Assembly (NCBI RefSeq): GCF_000381825.1
Contig: NZ_KB907128.1
Coordinates: 62,001 to 126,000 of the forward strand
Source of the DNA: Thioalkalivibrio sp. ALJT
GTDB lineage: Bacteria > Pseudomonadota > Gammaproteobacteria > Ectothiorhodospirales > Ectothiorhodospiraceae
Reading direction: 5' to 3'
Length of the DNA stretch: 64,000 bases
In this document: one piece after another, positions 1,480-12,632 of the stretch
Layout of the letters: each line of letters starts with the position of its first letter
Numbering within the stretch: the stretch's first letter is position 1
Program-made: the position numbers and the translations under genes
The notes under the pieces: generated by a model
Seen by the model: only the letters and a program-made list of their open reading frames with translations
What the model was told of the DNA's origin: nothing
Databases searched by the model: none

Positions 1480-4400
1480 TCAGGCCAGGCGTGGGTCGTG
1501 CTGACGCGGTTCGTCGGGGTGCGGGCGCGGGATGATGCAGTGGTTGACACGCTGAAGTTCGCGCTCGGCCCAGGACCGAATCCGGGCATCGGTGGCGAGG
1601 CGTCCGTAGTCGAGCAGGGCCTGACGTTCGATGTTCGGGTTGCCTTGCTGATGGGCGATATCGCGGGCGCGTTCCAGCTCCTGCCAGCCTGCGTCCATGC
1701 ACTCATCGCCTGCTGCGAACAGCGCGGTCGCGCGCAGACGGCGAAGTGCTGGTTCAAAACATGCATCACCGTACTGTTTGCAGCCCGCAAGAGCCGCGTC
1801 GGCCAGTTCCAGGCGTCGGGTCGGGTCGGTGTCGCAGGCCTGCAGGGCGTCCAGTAGCAGCAACTGGAAGAGGGTGCTCACCCCGTCCATGATCTGCCGT
1901 ATCGCCTCGATCTGTTCCTCAATGACGGGGATGGGATCGGATTGCCCCAACCGCGCCAGGGCCCAGCTCTCGAGGGTGATGCCGGCGGCACGCCATAGCG
2001 GATAGTCGTACTCGCGGGCGAGCGCCAGTGCCCGACGCGCGGCGGGCAGGGCGCCCTCGGCGTCGCCAGCGTAGAAGGCCAGGACCGCCTGGAAGCTGTT
2101 CATGAACGCCTCGGTGGGGCGGTGGCCGAGGTGGTGGGCCTGTTCGCATGCGACCTCGATTTCTTCCCAGGCGCGGGCATGGTTGCCCATGTGGAGCAGG
2201 GTCCAGGCGCGGAAACCGCGGGCGCTGATGGCCGGGTTCTCGGTATGTCGTGCGACCAGCGTTGCGTGGTCCTCGTCGCGATACAGCTCGATGGCCCGTG
2301 TCTGGTGTTCCATGGCCTCGGCGAACTGGCCGGTCCAGAAGTGGGTGTTGCCCTGGACGTAATGGGCGGCAATGCGCAGCAGGCGGTCGCTGGAGTGCTC
2401 CGCCAGGCGTTCCATCTCGTCGGCCAGGCGGTGTGCCTCGGTGAATCCGTGCCAGGAGCCGGCGCCGTGCCACAAGCCCCACAGAACCCGGAAGTACTGG
2501 ACGGGGTCTTGCTCCGGAGCCGTCAGGCGCATTGCGCATTCGAAGATGTTGTTCACGGTGCGCGATCCATAGCCGAGCAGAGCCAGGTTGGATGCACCAA
2601 GGCCGCCCAGGGCGCGCAGGGTGTTGTGCTCGTATTCGGACGGGTCCGTTTCGGTCCGGTGTGCGTCCGGAAACCGTTCGAGGCAGGTGAGGGCGTCCTC
2701 GAAGTATTGCGAGGCCTCCGGCAGGGTGCCGCGGGCAAAGGCCGCTTCACCCGCCTGCAGCCAGGCATGGGTCGCCTCCGGGTAGCGTGCTGCGTGGTAG
2801 AGGTGGTATGCGATCTGCCCCCAGTCGGGCGTCTGTATGCCGTTCTCGCCGTCTTCCTGCAAGAGGTCGGCCAGCTGACCGTGGAGCCGGGTGCGTTCAG
2901 TGAGCAGCATGGATTCGTAGGCCGCCTGACGGAACAGCACGTGGCGGAAGCGATAGCGCACGCCGTCGACCATGCCGGCTGGCTCGATGAAGCCCTTTCC
3001 GGTCAGACGCGTGAGCTGGCGCCGGATGGTGTCGGCCGGTTGCCCGCGCAGGCGGCTGAGGGTGCGGGTGTCGAAATCGCGGCCAATGACGGCCGCCGAG
3101 TGGGCCAGTTCGCGCGCGCTTCCGAGTTGCTCCAGACGCGCGACCAGCAGATTCGAGAGGCCGGGTGGCAGGCTCTCGGGAGACGACCCGGTGTGCGCGG
3201 CGTCCAGGGCATAGCGCGTGAGTTCCTCCAGAAATAGCGGAACGCCCTCTCCGTGTGCGACCAGCTGCTGGCGCAGGTGGGCGGAGAGCCGGTGATGGGG
3301 GTCGAGCTGGTCCACCAGGCGATGGGCGGCGTCGGCGTCGAGACCATGCAGGCGGAGATGTTCGATGGTCAGGTCACGCCAGGAGGAGCGATAACTCATG
3401 CGTGCGGTCAGTACAGCCAGCAGCGGTTGCCGGTGCAGCCGCTGGTAAAGCCGGCGCAGTAACTCGGCGGTTCCCGAGTCCATCCAGTGGAGGTCGTCGC
3501 AGATCAGCAGCGTGGGGCCATGAGCCGAGCGGCGGCGGACGAGTTCGACCAGGGTGTCGATGATGCGGTCGCGGTCCAGCCCTGTCCGCGCAAGATTCTC
3601 CGGCCCTTCGGTATCGGGGTGAGTCAGCCAGAGGGTGAGCCGTGCGGCCGCGTCAGCGGCCAGGCCTGTTTGCACCAGGGCGTGCTGGAGATGTCGTTGC
3701 CGTGCCTCACGCAAGCGGTCCTGACCGATCCAGGCGGCAAAGGCCTGACGCACCGGGGCGAGCAGCTGACGCGAACGGTCTTCGCGACATTTCAGCAGAT
3801 AGCGAGAACGGGCCTGGCCGCGGACCTGGAGATCGAGGCTTCGGGCCAGGCGGCTCTTGCCCAGACCGGCCTCGCCCTGAATCAGGACGAAGCGGACGGC
3901 CCCGGTCGTGAGTACCTGATCCCAGTGCGCGCGCAGGCGTTCCCGCTCGGGACAACGCCCCGTGAGGGGCGTCATGCCGTGTTGGGTTTGCGCGTCCACG
4001 CGGTCCAGCGGTCCGGGATCGGCGGTAACCCGGTAGACGCCGTTGTCCTCGGGGCTGAAGCCGAAGTAACCACCGATGCGAGCGTAGGTGGGCGCACTGA
4101 CGCGCAGGCTGCCGGGGTCGCCGCGTTGAGCGCAGTCCAGAGCCCGGGCCGTCAGCTGTCCGGCGGGGTCCGGCCAGTCGGGATCGGTGCCGGTCACGAT
4201 GAGGTCCGTATCGACCGCGAGACGTAACTGACATTCCCCGGGTGCGGTGGTGAGTGCCTGCCAGGCGGCGTGCACGGCGTCCACCGTGGCCTCTTCGCGA
4301 CCGGTCGGGTAACCGAAGTAGGCCAGCAGGCCATGCCCGGGCGAGGGCACCACGTGGCCATGGTGACTGAGGAGCACGAAATCGACGTGTTCCAGGCTCC

Positions 4401-5343
4401 GGGTGACCTGTTGCTGCTGGATCTCGCAATCGGCAGTCGGGTCGGGCTGTACATGGCAGGCCACCACGGTGACGCGACGGCGCTCGGGGCGCAGGGCAGG
4501 GGGTTCGGCGGCGTCCGCCCCGGTATGTTGCTGGCTGGCCTCCGCGCGTTCTGCGCCCAGGATCTCTTCGCGGGTTCGGGCCAGCAACTCGCCGGGACTT
4601 TTGCCGGCTTTGGCCTCCAGGTGGGCGTAATGTTCCAGCGCGCGCTTGGTGTGGCCGAGATGGGCCAGCGCCTTCATCAGCAGGTGGTGCAGGGTCTCGT
4701 CGTCTGGCGCCATCACCAGCAGGCGATGCAGCTCGGCCAGCAGTGGTTCGCCCTCGTTCGGTTTGGCCAGTGCGGCCAGATGCTGGCTGATGAAGACCAG
4801 CAGGTTCTGCCAGTGGTGATCCCGTTGTGACTGGGCCCAGGCCGCCAGCTCCGGCAGGTCCTGCAAGGCCCTCAGACCTTCGAGGAAGTGGCCGCGATAG
4901 CCGGAGACAATGGCCAGGTCGGGCGGCGGCGCGCTGGTTTCGCGGCCTTCGGTCGTGCGCCGTTCGGCACGCGACCGGTGCAGGATCAGGAAGTCGATCC
5001 GGGATTCCGGTTGTGGCTGGAAGCGGACATAGCGAGGCGTGGTGTCCAGCAGGGGGGGCTCGCTGGCGGGGAGCTGACGGCGCAGCTGAAACAGGCCCTG
5101 ACGCAGGTTGACCCGGGCGCTGTCGGCATCGAGCTCCGGCCAGAACAGTCGCGCCAGTTCTTCGCGCGGGATGCGGCGGGGGCTTTCGGCGGCAACGTAG
5201 GTGAGAAGCAGACCAAGCTTGGTACAGGAAAGGGCGGGTACGTCGCGTTCGCCAATGCGCACCCCCACGGTGCCGAAGGTGGTGATCTCCATCTGCACCA
5301 ACGGGTGTTCATTCTTGCCGTCTCGGCCCTTGTTCGTCGCCAT
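1480..5343 (-). CDS. BTAD/SARP-type regulator with cyclase-like, AAA and TPR regions
   Basis: A 1287-residue multidomain protein. Residues ~18-120 look like a winged-helix DNA-binding domain and ~145-260 like a bacterial transcriptional activator domain (BTAD). Residues ~285-450 resemble a degenerate class III nucleotide cyclase homology domain without the usual metal-binding pair. A P-loop ATPase follows (GEAGLGKSRLAR at ~490; Walker B LLICDDLHWMD at ~625), and residues ~780-1287 are TPR-like helical repeats. The architecture matches large STAND/AfsR-type activators in which ATP binding and TPR ligand sensing control transcription. An alternative start is Met18 (5292). It lies 125 bp upstream of, and co-directional with, the ABC importer operon, so control of that operon is possible but unproven. 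Confidence 0.85.
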   Translation of the reverse strand: MATNKGRDGKNEHPLVQMEITTFGTVGVRIGERDVPALSCTKLGLLLTYVAAESPRRIPREELARLFWPELDADSARVNLRQGLFQLRRQLPASEPPLLDTTPRYVRFQPQPESRIDFLILHRSRAERRTTEGRETSAPPPDLAIVSGYRGHFLEGLRALQDLPELAAWAQSQRDHHWQNLLVFISQHLAALAKPNEGEPLLAELHRLLVMAPDDETLHHLLMKALAHLGHTKRALEHYAHLEAKAGKSPGELLARTREEILGAERAEASQQHTGADAAEPPALRPERRRVTVVACHVQPDPTADCEIQQQQVTRSLEHVDFVLLSHHGHVVPSPGHGLLAYFGYPTGREEATVDAVHAAWQALTTAPGECQLRLAVDTDLIVTGTDPDWPDPAGQLTARALDCAQRGDPGSLRVSAPTYARIGGYFGFSPEDNGVYRVTADPGPLDRVDAQTQHGMTPLTGRCPERERLRAHWDQVLTTGAVRFVLIQGEAGLGKSRLARSLDLQVRGQARSRYLLKCREDRSRQLLAPVRQAFAAWIGQDRLREARQRHLQHALVQTGLAADAAARLTLWLTHPDTEGPENLARTGLDRDRIIDTLVELVRRRSAHGPTLLICDDLHWMDSGTAELLRRLYQRLHRQPLLAVLTARMSYRSSWRDLTIEHLRLHGLDADAAHRLVDQLDPHHRLSAHLRQQLVAHGEGVPLFLEELTRYALDAAHTGSSPESLPPGLSNLLVARLEQLGSARELAHSAAVIGRDFDTRTLSRLRGQPADTIRRQLTRLTGKGFIEPAGMVDGVRYRFRHVLFRQAAYESMLLTERTRLHGQLADLLQEDGENGIQTPDWGQIAYHLYHAARYPEATHAWLQAGEAAFARGTLPEASQYFEDALTCLERFPDAHRTETDPSEYEHNTLRALGGLGASNLALLGYGSRTVNNIFECAMRLTAPEQDPVQYFRVLWGLWHGAGSWHGFTEAHRLADEMERLAEHSSDRLLRIAAHYVQGNTHFWTGQFAEAMEHQTRAIELYRDEDHATLVARHTENPAISARGFRAWTLLHMGNHARAWEEIEVACEQAHHLGHRPTEAFMNSFQAVLAFYAGDAEGALPAARRALALAREYDYPLWRAAGITLESWALARLGQSDPIPVIEEQIEAIRQIMDGVSTLFQLLLLDALQACDTDPTRRLELADAALAGCKQYGDACFEPALRRLRATALFAAGDECMDAGWQELERARDIAHQQGNPNIERQALLDYGRLATDARIRSWAERELQRVNHCIIPRPHPDEPRQHDPRLA

Positions 5344-5947: not shown

Positions 5948-6218
5948 GGCGTTGGTCCCCCGGGGGCGGTCTTTGGTTCTGCTTTGAGAGTAGCAGGAGG
6001 GGATGCACTGCGCCGGGACGGGGGGCGCCGTCGCAGGCCATTGTCGGGAGGGTTGGTCGCGTCCCGGGGAAACGTTGAACAGGGGAACGCTGAATAAAGT
6101 CATCCTGGAGGGGCGGTCGGATGCGGGACGGCTCACCTGCCCCGCGCGCGCCGCTGGCCCGAATTCGATCGGCGGCACGTCCTTGTGCCGCGGGAAACGT
6201 CGGGCAATCCGTGTTTCC

Positions 6219-6482
6219 TCAGTGGCCGTGATACCCCTTGTGCAGGTATTCGACGCCGTCGAGGCTTTGCACTTCGATCTCGCGAACCGGGGTGTAGCGG
6301 GAGGCACCGGGCTGGACGATCTCTTCGGTCAGACGGATGCGGAACGGGGCCTCGCAGTTCAACAGCTGACCGACATAGCGCTTGCCCTCGTGGTTGACCC
6401 GTACCGGCGAGGTGGTCTCGTAGCGGCTGAAGTTGTAGCTGACGTCCTTGGGGTACTGCAGGTTCTGTTCGGAAAAGGTCAT
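6219..6482 (-). CDS. Conserved-looking hypothetical protein, 87 residues
   Basis: I do not recognise a family. The protein has no Cys, no membrane segment and no signal peptide. It looks like a small beta-rich cytoplasmic domain (SPVRVNHEGKRYVGQLLN, FRIRLTEEIV, VREIEVQSLDGVEYL). It ends with a His-rich GYHGH. It starts 15 bases after the end of the photolyase gene on the same strand, so it may be the last gene of the regulator-photolyase operon. The opposite-strand open frame through this stretch has no plausible protein character. Confidence 0.6.
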   Translation of the reverse strand: MTFSEQNLQYPKDVSYNFSRYETTSPVRVNHEGKRYVGQLLNCEAPFRIRLTEEIVQPGASRYTPVREIEVQSLDGVEYLHKGYHGH

Positions 6483-6497
6483 GGTCGGCCTCGGTTT

Positions 6498-7904
6498 TTA
6501 CGTGTTTTTGATGGCGTTGAAGGCCTCAAGAGCCGCTTGGCGGCTGGTCTTCAGGTCCACGATGGGCGCCGGGTAGTCGCGTGCGCCTCCGGCGCCTGGC
6601 GCGTGAATATACCGCGTTTCGGTGTTCTTGAGGGCGGGCAGGAAGCGGCGCACGAAATGGCCTTCCGGGTCGTACTGCTCGCCCTGGCGCTGCGGGTTGA
6701 AGACGCGGAAATAGGGTGCGGCATCGGCGCCGCAGCCGCCGGCCCACTGCCAGCCGAGGGTGTTGGCGGCCAGGTCGGCGTCGACCAGGGTGTCCCAGAA
6801 CCAGCGTGCGCCGTGGTGCCAGTGCAGGCGCAGGTTCTTGGTCAGGAAGGAGCCCACCACCATGCGCAGGCGATTGTGCATCCAGCCTGTTTCCCACAGT
6901 TGCGCCATGGCCGCGTCGACCACCGGTACCCCGGTGCGCCCGCGTTGCCAGGCGACGAGGTCGGTCCCGGACTCGCGCCACGGGAAGGCCTCGAAGCGCG
7001 GGTTCAGGGGGCGTTCCGGTGTGTGCGGAAAGTGGTAGAGCACATGATGGGCGAAGTCGCGCCAGCCGAGTTCGCGCACAAAGGCCTCCCCGCCCCCGTG
7101 TTCCGTATCCAGCCCCGTCTGGCGCAGGGCGCGCAGGATCTGGCGGGGCGAGATCTCGCCGAAATGCAGATGCGGTGACAGCCTCGAGGTCCCGTCCTGA
7201 TCCGGCCGGTCCCGAGTCCCGGCGTAATCCCGGGCGGTGCGGTCGAGGAAGTCCTGCAGGCGCGCGAGCGCCGCGGCCTCGCCGGGGTTCCAGGCGGCGC
7301 GCAGGCCGCCGGCCCAGTCGATGCCGGGCAGGAGCTGCAGTTGCTCGAGGGCGAGCGAGTCCGGTCGGCGTGCGGGTGGCTCCAGTGCGCCCGGTGCGGG
7401 CAGCGGGTCGTGGTCGATGCCGCGCTGGCGGCAGGCCTTCCAGAACGGCGAGAACACCCGGTAGGGCTGTCCCTGCCCGGTCGCGACCGCCCAGGGTTCA
7501 AGCAAAAGCGCGGCATTGAAGCTGCGCACCTCGAGGCCGTCGGTGCGCAGTGCGGCCTTGATGCCCTGGTCGCGCAGCACGCAGGCGGGGTCGTAAAGCC
7601 GATTCCAGTACACCGCGTCGGCACCAGTCTCCGCGACCAGGGTGCGCAGGGTGTCCAGGCTGGGGCCGGCGCGCAGGATCAGCGGGCTGCCGGCCTGCTC
7701 GAGTTCGGCGGCCAGCGCCTGCAGGCTGTGATGCAGCCACCAGTTGGAGGCGGCGCCCGGCTGCCAGGGCGCCTCTTCTTCCGGTGCATGGATGAATACC
7801 GGGATCACCGTTTCGCCGCGGGCGGCCGCCGCGTGCAGCGCGGGCTGGTCGGCCAGGCGCAGGTCGCGTCGCAGCCAGACCAGGGTGGGGCCAGGGGTGG
7901 TCAT
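6498..7904 (-). CDS. phrB: Deoxyribodipyrimidine photolyase (class I CPD photolyase)
   Basis: 468 residues, close to E. coli PhrB (472). It repairs cyclobutane pyrimidine dimers with blue light, using FADH-. Visible features: N-terminal Rossmann antenna-binding domain (LVWLRRDLRLADQPAL), the FAD-binding stretch TSRLSPHLHFGEIS, GWMHNRLRMVVGSFLTKNL, and DADLAANTLGWQW near the C-terminus, which contains the conserved Trp residues. The ATG at 7904 overlaps the stop of the upstream FeS-type photolyase gene (ATGA), so the two are probably translated in a coupled way. The longer open frame upstream is shadow sequence inside the neighbour. Confidence 0.95.
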   Translation of the reverse strand: MTTPGPTLVWLRRDLRLADQPALHAAAARGETVIPVFIHAPEEEAPWQPGAASNWWLHHSLQALAAELEQAGSPLILRAGPSLDTLRTLVAETGADAVYWNRLYDPACVLRDQGIKAALRTDGLEVRSFNAALLLEPWAVATGQGQPYRVFSPFWKACRQRGIDHDPLPAPGALEPPARRPDSLALEQLQLLPGIDWAGGLRAAWNPGEAAALARLQDFLDRTARDYAGTRDRPDQDGTSRLSPHLHFGEISPRQILRALRQTGLDTEHGGGEAFVRELGWRDFAHHVLYHFPHTPERPLNPRFEAFPWRESGTDLVAWQRGRTGVPVVDAAMAQLWETGWMHNRLRMVVGSFLTKNLRLHWHHGARWFWDTLVDADLAANTLGWQWAGGCGADAAPYFRVFNPQRQGEQYDPEGHFVRRFLPALKNTETRYIHAPGAGGARDYPAPIVDLKTSRQAALEAFNAIKNT

Positions 7905-9514
7905 CAGATGCGGTCTCCTGCTGCCAGGGTCTTGCGCAGCGCGCCCGCGCGCTCGCGGATCGCCAGCAGACGTTCGGGGGCCATCTTTTCCAGGTGTTTC
8001 CATTGCAGCGCGGTTCGCGGGTGGCGGGCGAAGCGGTCACGGTGGCGCGCGAGGAAGTCCCAGTACAGGGTGGTGAACGGGCAGGCCTTTTCGCCCACGG
8101 CCGCGCCCGGATCGAACGCGCAGTGCTGGCAGTAGTTGCTCATGCGCTGGATATAACGGCCACTGGCGACATAGGGCTTGGAGGCCATGCGGCCGCCGTC
8201 GGCGTATTGCGACATGCCGATCACGTTGGGCAGTTCCACCCATTCCACGGCGTCCACGTAGATGCCGAGATACCAGGCGTGGATGGCCTCGGGGCGCACG
8301 CCAAGGAGCTGGGCAAACAGTCCGGTCACCATCAGTCGCTGGATGTGGTGCGCGTAGCCCAGCCGCAGGGTCTGACCCACGGCCTGGTGCAGGCACTGCA
8401 TGGAGGTGTTGGCGTCCCAGTACAGGGCAGGCAGGGGTTCGCCCGCATCGAGGGTATTCCACTCGTGCCAGTCGGTGCCGAAGTGGTAGTACAGCCCGCG
8501 CACGTACTCGCGCCAGCCAAGGATCTGGCGGATGAATCCCTCGGTCGCGGCCAGCGGTGCATCGCCGTCACGCCAGGCCTGTTCCGCAGCCGTAATGACC
8601 TCCCGCGGGTGGATCAGGTGCAGATTCAGCGCGGCACTCAGGCGGGCATGGTAGAGCCATGGCTGATCGGTCCACATCGCGTCCTGGTAGGTGCCGAAAT
8701 GCGGCAGGCGCTGGGTGATGAAGTCGTCCAGGGCCGCACGCGCCTGTTGTGGGGTGACCGGCCAGTCAAAGGCGGCATCCTCACCTGGCAGGTCCGGGAG
8801 GTGATGCCGGATGTCCTGCTGGCATTCGCGGGTGATGGCGTCGGGTGGGAAGCGCAGGGGTTCCGGCAGCAGGCCCGGGCCCTGGCGCCCGAAGTGGCTG
8901 CGGTTGTTGGCGTCGAAATTCCATTGTCCCCCGGCCGGCTCGTCGCCTTCCATCAGGATGTCGAGGCGCAGGCGCTGTTCGCGGTAGAAGTACTCCATGC
9001 GCAGTTGCCTGCGGCCCCGGGCCCAATTCGAGAAGGTGGCGAGCGGTACTAGGAAATGCGGGTCCTCGTGGATCCGGAGTGGTGTGGCCGCGGTGTGGCA
9101 GGCGGTCTCCAGCAGGCTCCGGACGCGGTGTTCCCCCGGTTGCAACACCTGGACCTGGCGTGGTTGCAGGCGTTCGAGGTCGGCCTGCAGCGCAGTGTCC
9201 AGGGTTGACTCGGGGTGTTGCCCCAGCCGCCGGTAGTGGACCGTCAGACCGCCTTCCTGACGTTCATGGGCAAAGTGCCGCATCGCGGCCAGGAAGAGGG
9301 TGGTGCGGGCCATGTGCGAGGCTACGTGCCGTGACTCGGCGGCGACTTCGGCCATCCAGAGGGCGTCCTGTTGCGGGTCAAGCTGCGCGAGGATGGGATG
9401 CTGCGGATCGAGCTGATCTCCGAGCACCACCAGCAGGGTGCGCAACCGGGCGCCCGGGCGTGACGATGCAGGAGGGATCACGAGGCTGGACGGGGCGACA
9501 TCAGTTGAGCGCAA
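7904..9514 (-). CDS. FeS-type cryptochrome/photolyase (CryB/PhrB-related family)
   Basis: 536 residues. The protein belongs to the photolyase-related family whose studied members repair (6-4) photoproducts and carry a 4Fe-4S cluster. N-terminal VVLGDQLDPQHP is typical of that family. The four cluster cysteines can be placed: one in SMQCLHQAVGQTLRLGYAHH, two in NYCQHC and one in EKACPF. HIQRLMVTGLFAQLLG and WVELPNVIGMSQYADGG are the conserved flavin-domain segments. It is the middle gene between the MerR-type regulator (91-bp gap) and phrB (4-base overlap). The pairing suggests that both UV photoproducts are repaired by one light-regulated operon. Confidence 0.9.
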   Translation of the reverse strand: MRSTDVAPSSLVIPPASSRPGARLRTLLVVLGDQLDPQHPILAQLDPQQDALWMAEVAAESRHVASHMARTTLFLAAMRHFAHERQEGGLTVHYRRLGQHPESTLDTALQADLERLQPRQVQVLQPGEHRVRSLLETACHTAATPLRIHEDPHFLVPLATFSNWARGRRQLRMEYFYREQRLRLDILMEGDEPAGGQWNFDANNRSHFGRQGPGLLPEPLRFPPDAITRECQQDIRHHLPDLPGEDAAFDWPVTPQQARAALDDFITQRLPHFGTYQDAMWTDQPWLYHARLSAALNLHLIHPREVITAAEQAWRDGDAPLAATEGFIRQILGWREYVRGLYYHFGTDWHEWNTLDAGEPLPALYWDANTSMQCLHQAVGQTLRLGYAHHIQRLMVTGLFAQLLGVRPEAIHAWYLGIYVDAVEWVELPNVIGMSQYADGGRMASKPYVASGRYIQRMSNYCQHCAFDPGAAVGEKACPFTTLYWDFLARHRDRFARHPRTALQWKHLEKMAPERLLAIRERAGALRKTLAAGDRI

Positions 9515-9605
9515 CGCAGGCTCAGGAACATGTCTGCGGCTTGGTGGCCTTCATTGTGTGCCAGGAGCCTGTCGGATTGGGGACGGATCGGCTGCGCGTA
9601 CGCGA

Positions 9606-10583
9606 TCATGGGCCCGCGTTTCCCTGTGGCGTGAGCCGTTGTGTCAGGTGCCGGGCGGCCTCCAGCGGAGGTCGCGGCAGGACCTCGACCTCGCGTCCAT
9701 GCGCCATCTGTGCCAGTTCCGGTGCGGCAGAGCCGGCGAGGAAGCAGGGCGGCCCGGACTGCTTCAGGATGGACTCGATACGCGGCAGTTCGGGGCTGCG
9801 TTTCAGCTGCGACGAGGCATGGATGATCACGGCCGGGGCGCCCAGACGCCGGACCAGGATCTCCAGCCCCTCCGGACTCATCGCATCGAACAGGGGTTTG
9901 GTCTTCAGCCCCTTACGCGCGCAGGCCAGTTGCAGGAGCAGTCCGCCGACCTGCTGGTGGCCTCCGCCAAGTACGAGAAAGGGGCAGGACGGGCCTTCGC
10001 AGGCACGCAGCGCAGTCCGCAGCTGGTCGGCGAGCGATGCGGTGGCCCAGGCGGCGAAGATGGCGAGGTGGACTTCGCCTTCGGCGCTTTGTCGGGATGC
10101 CTCGCGCAGATGGTGGTAGACCTCGAGAAACGCGCTGGCATGGACCCCCTTCCAGCCGAAACGCATTACCAGGCGGGAGTAGCTGCGGTCCAGTTCGGTG
10201 ACGTTCAGGCCGGTGACCGCCCGATAAAGGGTTTCCACGATCGGGTCAGTCGTATGGGGTGGCACGCCCGGGCCGGGGGTTTCCCGGCTTGGGGACGCGA
10301 CCGTATCCTCTTGTGTGGCGGGTGTGGGTTCATCGTTGAGTACGCGGTGAACCTGCGAGACCGGAATTCCCTGATCCAGTAATTCCAGGATGCGCTTGAT
10401 GCGGGCGATGTCCCCGGCGCTGTAAAGGCGGTGACCCTTGGGGGTGCGCATCGGACGCACAAGCCCGTAACGACGCTCCCAGGCGCGCAAAGTCACGTCG
10501 GTGACGCCGGTCTCTGCACAGACATGCCGAATCGGGTAGAGCCCGTCCTGATCCTGCGAGTCGGTATGGGTCGTGCTGGTCAT
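9606..10583 (-). CDS. MerR-family regulator, LitR/CarH-like
   Basis: 325 residues. Residues ~15-85 are a MerR winged helix (LYPIRHVCAETGVTDVTLRA, then WERRYGLVRP and a GHRLYSAGDIARIKRI segment). The rest resembles the two-part cobalamin-binding region of CarH/LitR: a four-helix bundle and a Rossmann-like domain (CPFLVLGGGHQQVGGLLLQL). The W-x9-EH motif of CarH is not present, and the ligand His of the H-x-x-G motif appears shifted (GHQQVG), so cobalamin binding is doubtful. The ATG at 10583 is preferred to the one at 10601, which lies inside the operator-like repeats. Its adjacency to two photolyases fits a light-responsive repressor. Confidence 0.85.
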   Translation of the reverse strand: MTSTTHTDSQDQDGLYPIRHVCAETGVTDVTLRAWERRYGLVRPMRTPKGHRLYSAGDIARIKRILELLDQGIPVSQVHRVLNDEPTPATQEDTVASPSRETPGPGVPPHTTDPIVETLYRAVTGLNVTELDRSYSRLVMRFGWKGVHASAFLEVYHHLREASRQSAEGEVHLAIFAAWATASLADQLRTALRACEGPSCPFLVLGGGHQQVGGLLLQLACARKGLKTKPLFDAMSPEGLEILVRRLGAPAVIIHASSQLKRSPELPRIESILKQSGPPCFLAGSAAPELAQMAHGREVEVLPRPPLEAARHLTQRLTPQGNAGP

Positions 10584-10591
10584 GGGATAAT

Positions 10592-10619
10592 TGTACAACA
10601 TCTATACAAACTTTGTGCA
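10592..10619. promoter_or_regulatory. Triple 11-bp-spaced TnTACA operator-like repeat
   Basis: Three hexamers start exactly 11 bases apart: TGTACA (10592), TATACA (10603) and TGTGCA (10614). CarH-type regulators bind head-to-tail 11-bp repeats containing TnTACA, one per DNA-binding domain. The site begins 9 bases upstream of the regulator's ATG. On the minus strand a -10-like TACAAT (10595 to 10590) overlaps the first repeat, so bound protein would block RNA polymerase. This supports autoregulation of the regulator-photolyase operon. Confidence 0.75.
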
Positions 10620-10736
10620 CGACAGCGGATCGGGCCCGCGGCCTGCGAGGCATGCCCGTCCGAGGATGAACCTTCGCGCTGCTGGCGTCGACCAAACATC
10701 ACAGTGACCCTTTCCAATCTGGTGCAAGGAGCCGGT

Positions 10737-12632
10737 ATGCCGACACGAACCGAAACCCCTGGCCCCGCGGCTGCGCTGCTCGCTGTCTTGCTGAGCGGCC
10801 TGCTGGGTCTGTCTGTTGAAGTCCGGGCCAATCCGGAGATGGCCGACAGCATTTCGCCCTACCTGCGTCTGCATGTGGACGACCCGGTACAGTGGCGCGC
10901 GTGGGACCCGGCCCTGCTGGAGAAGGCGCGCGAGCAGGGGCGTCCTCTGCTGATCTCGAGCGGCTACTATTCCTGCTTCTACTGCCATGTGATGCAGGAA
11001 GAGAGCTTCCGCGACGAAGGGATTGCACGGCGTCTGAACGAGCATTTCATCCCAGTGAAGATCGATCGCGAGGTGGATGGTGCGCTGGATGCCTACCTGC
11101 TGGAGTTTCAGCGGGCGACGGCGGGCAGTGCCGGCTGGCCGCTGAATGTGGTGGTGACCCCGAACGGGCATGGCCTGACCGGCGTGGTCTACGTCCCGCG
11201 CGATGGTTTCGCCGAGTTCCTGGACCGCATTGCCGAACGCCTCGACGCCGATTACGACGCCTTGCTGGACCTGGCCCGGCGGGGCAGTGAAGAACTCTCG
11301 CAGCGGCTGCGTGAAGGCGAGGCGCCCCTGTCCGCAGGGCGGGCCGGGCGGTTGTCCGAGGTCCTCTGGAGCCGTCTGGAACGCGAGGCGGATGACCTCG
11401 GCGGCGGCTTCGGGCAGTCCGTCAAGTTCCCGCATTCGCCCTGGCTGCGGGCCATGCTCGAGGCCGAACAGGCGGGGACGGCGCCGGGCTGGGTCGCCGA
11501 GTTCCTGGAGATCACTCTGGATGAGATGGCGGGGGCGGGACTGCGGGATGTCCTCGGCGGCGGGTTCTTCCGCTACTCCGAATCGCCCGACTGGAACGAG
11601 CCTCATTTCGAGGTGATGCTGGAGGATCAGGCCCAGTTATCCTGGATCTATCTGCAGGCGGGGGCGCACTATGGCCGCGATGACTGGGTCGCGCTGGGTC
11701 TGGAGAACCTCGACTTTGTAAAGCGCGACATGGCCTTGCGCGAGGACGACATGGGGGCTTCGGCCAGGCCTGCAACGGATGGCTTCCGCGGCTACGCGTC
11801 CAGCCTGTCGGCGGTCGATGAGCAGGGTCGTGAGGGTGGAGCCTATCTGTGGCCGACGGATGACCTGGAGGCGGCGCTGGCCGATCACCCCAACCCGGAG
11901 CTGGTGCGCGCCCGGTTTGGCATGGAGGGGCGTTCGGTGTTCGAGCTGGGGTACCTTCCGCGCAGCGGGGCAGGGGTTGCCGCCCTGGCCGAACGCTTCG
12001 ATGTGCCGGAGGACCGCGTGCGCGCACAGGTCGAGGCCGGTCGTAATGCCCTGATCCGGGCGCGCGAGGCGCGCGGGTTGCCGCGAGACGAGAAGGTCCT
12101 GACAGGAGCACATGGCCTGCTGCTGTCGGCCCTGTCGCTGGCGGCAGACCACGATGCGCGCTTCAAGGATGCCGGGGTAAGAGTGCGCGACTGGCTGCTC
12201 GAGGTGAGTGCCGACCCGGATCGCCTGCCGGCGCTGATGGGGTTGCCGGAAGATCAGGCGGGGGTGGCCACGCTCAATGACTATGCCTACGTCGCCCGGG
12301 GCCTGTATGACTGGGAACGCCGGCAGGGGGGGCGGGACTACGCGCGGCCAAGGGCACTGCTGGAAGCCGCCTGGGGGCGTCTGCGTGACGCGGATGGCTT
12401 TCGGGCAGAGCCGGAGCCGACGCTGCCGGGGATGATCTCCCAGCGCTTCCACCCGGCGGTACACCGGCCGTCGCCGACGACCCTGATCCTGCGGCTGAGC
12501 GATGAGCTGCAGGGAGAGAGCGAGGCGCTGACCACGGCCTTTGGCGGGTATGATCGACGTCCGGGACGGGCGCTGGAAAGCGAGCCGCTGCATCATGCAC
12601 GACTGATCCTGTGGCTGGAGGGGCGCGACTGA
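10737..12632 (+). CDS. Exported DUF255 (YyaL/SPATA20-like) thioredoxin-fold protein
   Basis: 631 residues. After an N-terminal signal-like segment (AAALLAVLLSGLLGLSVEV) comes the DUF255 thioredoxin-fold domain, with NPEMADSISPYLRLHVDDPV and the redox motif CFYCHVM. The remainder is a long alpha/alpha-barrel-like region, as in N-acylglucosamine-2-epimerase-type folds. The family's role is poorly known. The start at 10737 has a clear AAGGAG 5 bases upstream, ruling out the longer frame. It is transcribed away from the photolyase regulator, with about 150 bp between the start codons. Export to the periplasm is inferred only from the hydrophobic N-terminus. Confidence 0.85.
   Translation: MPTRTETPGPAAALLAVLLSGLLGLSVEVRANPEMADSISPYLRLHVDDPVQWRAWDPALLEKAREQGRPLLISSGYYSCFYCHVMQEESFRDEGIARRLNEHFIPVKIDREVDGALDAYLLEFQRATAGSAGWPLNVVVTPNGHGLTGVVYVPRDGFAEFLDRIAERLDADYDALLDLARRGSEELSQRLREGEAPLSAGRAGRLSEVLWSRLEREADDLGGGFGQSVKFPHSPWLRAMLEAEQAGTAPGWVAEFLEITLDEMAGAGLRDVLGGGFFRYSESPDWNEPHFEVMLEDQAQLSWIYLQAGAHYGRDDWVALGLENLDFVKRDMALREDDMGASARPATDGFRGYASSLSAVDEQGREGGAYLWPTDDLEAALADHPNPELVRARFGMEGRSVFELGYLPRSGAGVAALAERFDVPEDRVRAQVEAGRNALIRAREARGLPRDEKVLTGAHGLLLSALSLAADHDARFKDAGVRVRDWLLEVSADPDRLPALMGLPEDQAGVATLNDYAYVARGLYDWERRQGGRDYARPRALLEAAWGRLRDADGFRAEPEPTLPGMISQRFHPAVHRPSPTTLILRLSDELQGESEALTTAFGGYDRRPGRALESEPLHHARLILWLEGRD

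Follow-up and report, generated by a model that had tools for sequence, protein, structure and literature searches.

What three TGTACA-like hexamers spaced exactly 11 bp apart are doing directly in front of a regulator gene and two photolyase genes is the question raised by this locus of Thioalkalivibrio sp. ALJT. The window referred to below is the whole stretch of 64,000 nucleotides that was analyzed. An earlier note on this DNA read the hexamers as an autoregulatory, light-responsive operator bound by a CarH-type repressor; it made no mention of the LOV protein, of a regulon beyond this operon, of the promoter and leaderless geometry, or of how the spacing contrasts with the 18 bp of Pseudomonas and Halomonas. 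The reading favored here, to which we assign a probability of roughly 75%, is an autoregulated blue-light repressor operator that combines the operator grammar of CarH with a regulon like that of class II LitR and control by a LOV protein. The array consists of:

10592..10597, operator core 1, TGTACA; positions 10592-10595 belong to the -10 hexamer, and the core is kept in 26 of 26 genus genomes
10603..10608, operator core 2, TATACA (TGTATA on the minus strand); within the promoter spacer
10614..10619, operator core 3, TGTGCA (TGCACA on the minus strand); identical with the -35 hexamer, and TGTACA in several close relatives

The three hexamers begin at 10592, 10603 and 10614 as originally reported, but their common description as TnTACA fits only the first two, since TGTGCA departs from it, and the perfect TGTACA is present in just one of the three cores in the window strain. 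Because TGTACA is palindromic, a reading along the regulator's own strand gives the equivalent array TGCACA-N5-TGTATA-N5-TGTACA. The exact three-hexamer pattern is found once in the window and, even at a tolerance of three mismatches, was absent from all 100 dinucleotide shuffles; an 11-bp array of three cores with at most four mismatches to TGTACA was seen once against approximately 0.02 expected per 64 kb. The array adjoins the regulator gene, its first hexamer being separated from the ATG at 10583 by 8 bases, not 9. A longer in-frame open reading frame begins at 10601, its ATG falling inside the repeats; the ATG at 10583, not 10601, is the start common to relatives, and by this comparison it is the start codon of the regulator.

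The cores are also built into a predicted promoter:

10590..10619, minus strand, predicted sigma-70 promoter of the regulator operon, TGCACA-N18-TACAAT; the sole promoter-like site in 6100-10900
10583, minus strand, predicted transcription start at the A of the ATG, placed from spacing only

Core 3 is the -35 hexamer (TGCACA) and core 1, shifted by two bases, is the -10 hexamer (TACAAT), with a spacer of 18 bp. Six bases separate the -10 hexamer from the ATG at 10583, which places the predicted start at the A of that codon. Since a -10-like hexamer lies in the proximal core 6-7 nt from the ATG in all 26 Thioalkalivibrio orthologs, the regulator mRNA is probably leaderless; a Shine-Dalgarno-like motif was seen in only two of the 26. 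The same geometry bears on the idea that the repeats serve the divergent DUF255/thioredoxin-like gene (window 10737-12632) and not the regulator operon. The repeats do lie in the intergenic region shared by the two genes, and this neighbor is kept there in several members of the genus; however, its distance of 6-7 nt to the regulator ATG is constant, the array forms the -35 and -10 of that gene and is 117 bp from the other start, and it is kept beside other neighbors in distant relatives, so that this is the least probable of the readings considered.

Downstream of the array, the genes on the minus strand are:

9606..10583, minus strand, regulator with a MerR-type helix-turn-helix (HTH) and a CarH-like helical bundle/Rossmann C-terminal half lacking the B12 residues
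7904..9514, minus strand, CryB/PhrB-type FeS (6-4) photolyase (DPRP, PF04244); start codon uncertain
6498..7904, minus strand, class I photolyase (PhrB); one base of its ATG is shared with the stop codon of the preceding gene
6219..6482, minus strand, 87-amino acid protein without known function, lying 15 bp beyond phrB and possibly encoded by the last gene of the operon

The order regulator-CryB-PhrB on one strand is the same in a relative (G029), and the arrangement of the genes suggests that the photolyases are likely co-transcribed with the regulator. Beyond the operon lies a gene for a 1287-amino acid BTAD/AAA/TPR regulator (window 1480-5343), and a similar gene is found in the same place in L134 and L146.

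Relatives were collected by a search with the regulator protein. Looking upstream of orthologous regulator genes for the same repeats, as the earlier note had proposed, found TGTACA-like cores at 11-bp spacing in all 26 Thioalkalivibrio genes with a readable start, and two or three cores at 11-bp steps extend across the genus and other Ectothiorhodospiraceae (Ectothiorhodospira-type). The claim of an operator of 11-bp repeats before its own regulator and upstream of two photolyases is thus supported, the repeats being kept in relatives and overlapping the promoter. In a census of whole loci, which are related to each other so that the counts are not independent events, 11-bp pairs were found in 31 of 31 loci of the Thioalkalivibrio type and 18-bp pairs in 0 of 31; other gammaproteobacterial LitR loci favored 11 bp (23/55), and the Halomonas/Pseudomonas type had exact 18-bp pairs in 12 loci and exact 11-bp pairs in none. 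When gaps from 0 to 30 were scanned across the genus, N5 was the commonest among the matches listed. The published operator consensus of PplR1 and PmlR2, T(G/A)TACA-N12-TGTA(C/T)A, corresponds to 18 bp (PMC9758184). A few other gammaproteobacterial LitR genes (L121, L122, L123, and L102/L159 from Arhodomonas) have cores at 19-bp or 13-bp spacing, and additional operator spacings therefore exist in the family.

The 11-bp step is that of CarH. CarH repeats have been described as nnnnTnnACAn (PMC9304148); as a positive control, the T. thermophilus carH promoter gave TGTACA-N5-TTGACA-N5-TATACA, which matches that description. Taking a CarH-type operator to be at least three tandem 11-bp TnnACA repeats over a promoter, the window has two full repeats and one near-repeat, and known CarH operators likewise mix full and partial repeats (PMC9304148). 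The array could also be read as a classic MerR-type inverted repeat, in which a dimer grips the outer cores across the long spacer and, in the light, activates rather than represses. The near-symmetry of the array about its middle core, the 18-bp spacer, and the MerR HTH of the regulator agree with this, and flanking bases do not settle between direct and inverted orientation (0.34 direct versus 0.27 inverted at the regulator sites, and 0.28 versus 0.31 at the LOV sites). Many operators of the family, however, are just two cores 11 bp apart, and 11 bp is too short a distance to fit both heads of an ordinary MerR dimer. The characterized LitR and CarH proteins are, moreover, repressors (PMC9758184, PMC9304148), and we consider the inverted-repeat reading unlikely, if the most credible of the alternatives.

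The regulator protein has a MerR-type HTH (PF13411, E 9e-17; aligning to 3WHP and 5C8D), and its structure model, with a mean pLDDT of 88, has CarH structures as first matches (target TM of approximately 0.8 over the cobalamin domain); the C-terminal half is thus predicted to fold like CarH, as a four-helix bundle followed by a Rossmann cobalamin-domain fold. A true CarH would bind adenosylcobalamin (AdoCbl), tetramerize in the dark and be its own green-light sensor, leaving the LOV protein unrelated, and the predicted fold, the 11-bp operator as in T. thermophilus, and adenosyltransferases in the genome would all be in keeping with it. The AdoCbl signature of W131, E141, H142, and H177 corresponds to the motifs GxxW, EH, and GxxH (PMC11796333). 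In alignment with T. thermophilus CarH, these four residues of the window protein are replaced by S, L, A, and Q; the genus lacks the signature. All four residues are retained in several other gammaproteobacterial LitRs that have 11-bp operators. The NCBIfam CarH equivalog model scores 75 bits against a cut-off of 400. With the binding and sensing residues gone and the score far under the cut-off, the assignment to CarH in the B12 sense is not supported, and a true CarH is very improbable, though slightly less so than an operator for the DUF255 neighbor. Independence from B12 through lack of an adenosyltransferase was ruled out, since both cobalamin adenosyltransferase families are encoded in the genome; B12 may accordingly be available, and the case for B12 independence is made by the missing residues alone. 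Judged by residues only, the regulator would have lost the capacity to bind B12, a loss that defines class II LitR.

The regulator nevertheless does not fit either LitR class as these have been drawn: without the B12 signature it is outside class I, and by both clade and spacing it is outside the class II clade. In the tree, the Halomonas/Pseudomonas group was supported at 100/99 with Thioalkalivibrio outside it, and the spacing label changes once. The data allow all B12-less regulators to form a single clade, although with weak support (p-AU 0.52), and a clade of only Thioalkalivibrio/Ectothiorhodospira and Halomonas/Pseudomonas is not rejected (p-AU 0.28). No second LitR was found in the genome, just another MerR HTH. 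The sequence features taken together suggest a regulator that would work like a class II LitR with a CarH-type operator.

A search of the 2.66-Mb genome for a wider regulon found four sites that match TGTACA-N5-TGTACA with no more than one mismatch (none for a reversed-pattern control), and three that match all three cores with no more than two. The four sites are:

the photolyase operon of the window
the region separating DUF3429-folE from a divergent FAD oxidoreductase gene, which is followed by a ufaM-like methyltransferase gene
the operon of a Tll0287-like (PF11845) protein and a short LOV protein
C1:229125, near tsaD, probably a chance site

Pfam confirms folE, DUF1365, CMAS (ufaM-like), and the FAD oxidoreductase, with DUF1365 and CMAS found in a relative; where the region was read in the relative G025, DUF1365 lies between the FAD oxidoreductase and the ufaM-like gene. 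In the Pseudomonas class II LitR system, folE, ufaM, phrB, and cryB are light-induced (PMC9758184). All four gene kinds stand behind 11-bp sites here, and by gene kind the set matches that light regulon. Of 30 LOV loci in the genus, 25 have an 11-bp pair (at most two mismatches) ahead of the LOV operon, at a similar distance in those measured. Two of the remaining five loci are ended by contig ends, no 11-bp pair was found in the LOV upstream regions of two genus members (G010 and G012), and in G029 the pair is further off because a transposase-like ORF (L131:4838-6088) has inserted and now stands between the LOV gene on one side and the Tll0287-like gene and the 11-bp operator on the other. 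In other members of the family with a related regulator and a PpSB-type LOV protein, no 11-bp pair was found near the LOV gene.

The light-response reading proposed originally is well founded, and the array is common to the operon of a blue-light photoreceptor. The LOV protein matches PpSB1-LOV (3SW1) over the whole LOV core (E 1.5e-55) and has the reactive cysteine motif DCRFLQ, a likeness to PpSB1-LOV and PmSB-LOV from which it differs in being encoded behind the Tll0287-like protein and its own 11-bp operator. All 30 genomes of the genus encode this short LOV protein. Outside the genus, with B12-type and B12-less labels set by motif and by hand, PpSB-type LOV proteins (>180 bits) were found only with LitRs that lack the B12 residues (8 genomes versus 0 of 14 B12-type; p 0.0006, or 0.014 when collapsed by genus). 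Five genomes have a B12-less LitR without a PpSB-type LOV protein, and the link between LOV and B12 loss is therefore one-way. In P. mendocina, light leads the LOV protein to interact with the HTH half of LitR and to inhibit DNA binding by LitR, so that LOV acts as a blue-light anti-repressor (PMC9758184). By analogy, we infer that the LOV protein anti-represses the Thioalkalivibrio regulator.

On this view, the three cores would make up the operator for the neighboring regulator, which is B12-free and related to CarH and LitR. In the dark, the regulator would sit on the 11-bp repeats and cover both the -35 and the -10 of its own probably leaderless promoter, shutting off the regulator together with both photolyases, (6-4) and class I; the same 11-bp code at the folE/FAD oxidoreductase-ufaM-like and Tll0287-like/short-LOV promoter regions would bring these under joint control. 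In blue light, the LOV protein would bind the regulator and lift it off the DNA, as PmSB-LOV does to PmlR2, and release would induce the photoprotection genes and yield more LOV sensor. This predicted self-induction differs from P. mendocina, where light does not induce the LOV gene (PMC9758184).

Compared with known systems, the locus resembles class II LitR (PplR1 of P. putida and PmlR2 of P. mendocina; PMC9758184) in the absence of B12 residues, in its TGTACA-type cores, in a regulon with PhrB, CryB, UfaM, and FolE, and in a PpSB-type short LOV protein in the genome. It differs from class II LitR in its 11-bp spacing, compared with 18 bp both in the published operators and in the Pseudomonas and Halomonas loci studied here, in a regulator outside the Halomonas/Pseudomonas clade, and in a LOV gene with the same operator. 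With CarH of Thermus thermophilus and Bacillus megaterium and the myxobacterial CarH/CarA (PMC9304148), it shares the MerR HTH, the CarH-like C-terminal fold, and tandem 11-bp TnnACA repeats over the promoter, but the B12-binding residues are gone, a LOV protein is the likely light sensor, and the regulon is of photolyase, folE, and ufaM-like genes while that of CarH systems is mainly of carotenoid genes. CarA is also B12-independent, yet its light input is the CarS antirepressor.

One operator grammar joins two known light switches, the B12-based CarH and the LOV-controlled LitR. Whether this lineage preserves an intermediate stage of a chromophore swap, in which a CarH-type repressor lost its built-in B12 sensor and acquired separate LOV control while keeping the 11-bp operator of CarH, with Halomonas and Pseudomonas later re-spaced to 18 bp, is an even bet; the single spacing change on the tree and the 11-bp operators also found with B12-type gammaproteobacterial LitRs are consistent with it. 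The contrast of 11 bp and 18 bp is a natural one for how regulators change DNA spacing in evolution. The locus also offers a compact, probably leaderless promoter, predicted to be self-repressing, in which the operator supplies both the -35 and the -10. For soda-lake sulfur oxidizers the reading predicts a blue-light regulon of DNA repair and photoprotection; a literature search on Thioalkalivibrio and photolyase found no relevant paper.

Further arrays were seen elsewhere in the genus. Several Thioalkalivibrio (L130:5378, L136:5581, L139:4735) have a TGTACA-N5-TGTACA pair approximately 250 bp ahead of a priA-like gene; this pair was not found in the genome of the window at that stringency. 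Two- or three-core 11-bp arrays are near a lipoprotein-like gene in other Thioalkalivibrio (L132:7615, L135:5110, L137:5621), and those in L135 and L137 face a PAS-type gene (PAS/MCP in L135). An 11-bp pair at L138:5758 (G025) lies between a CheY-like/CheA-like cluster and a 642-amino acid ORF, with identical sequence in G026.
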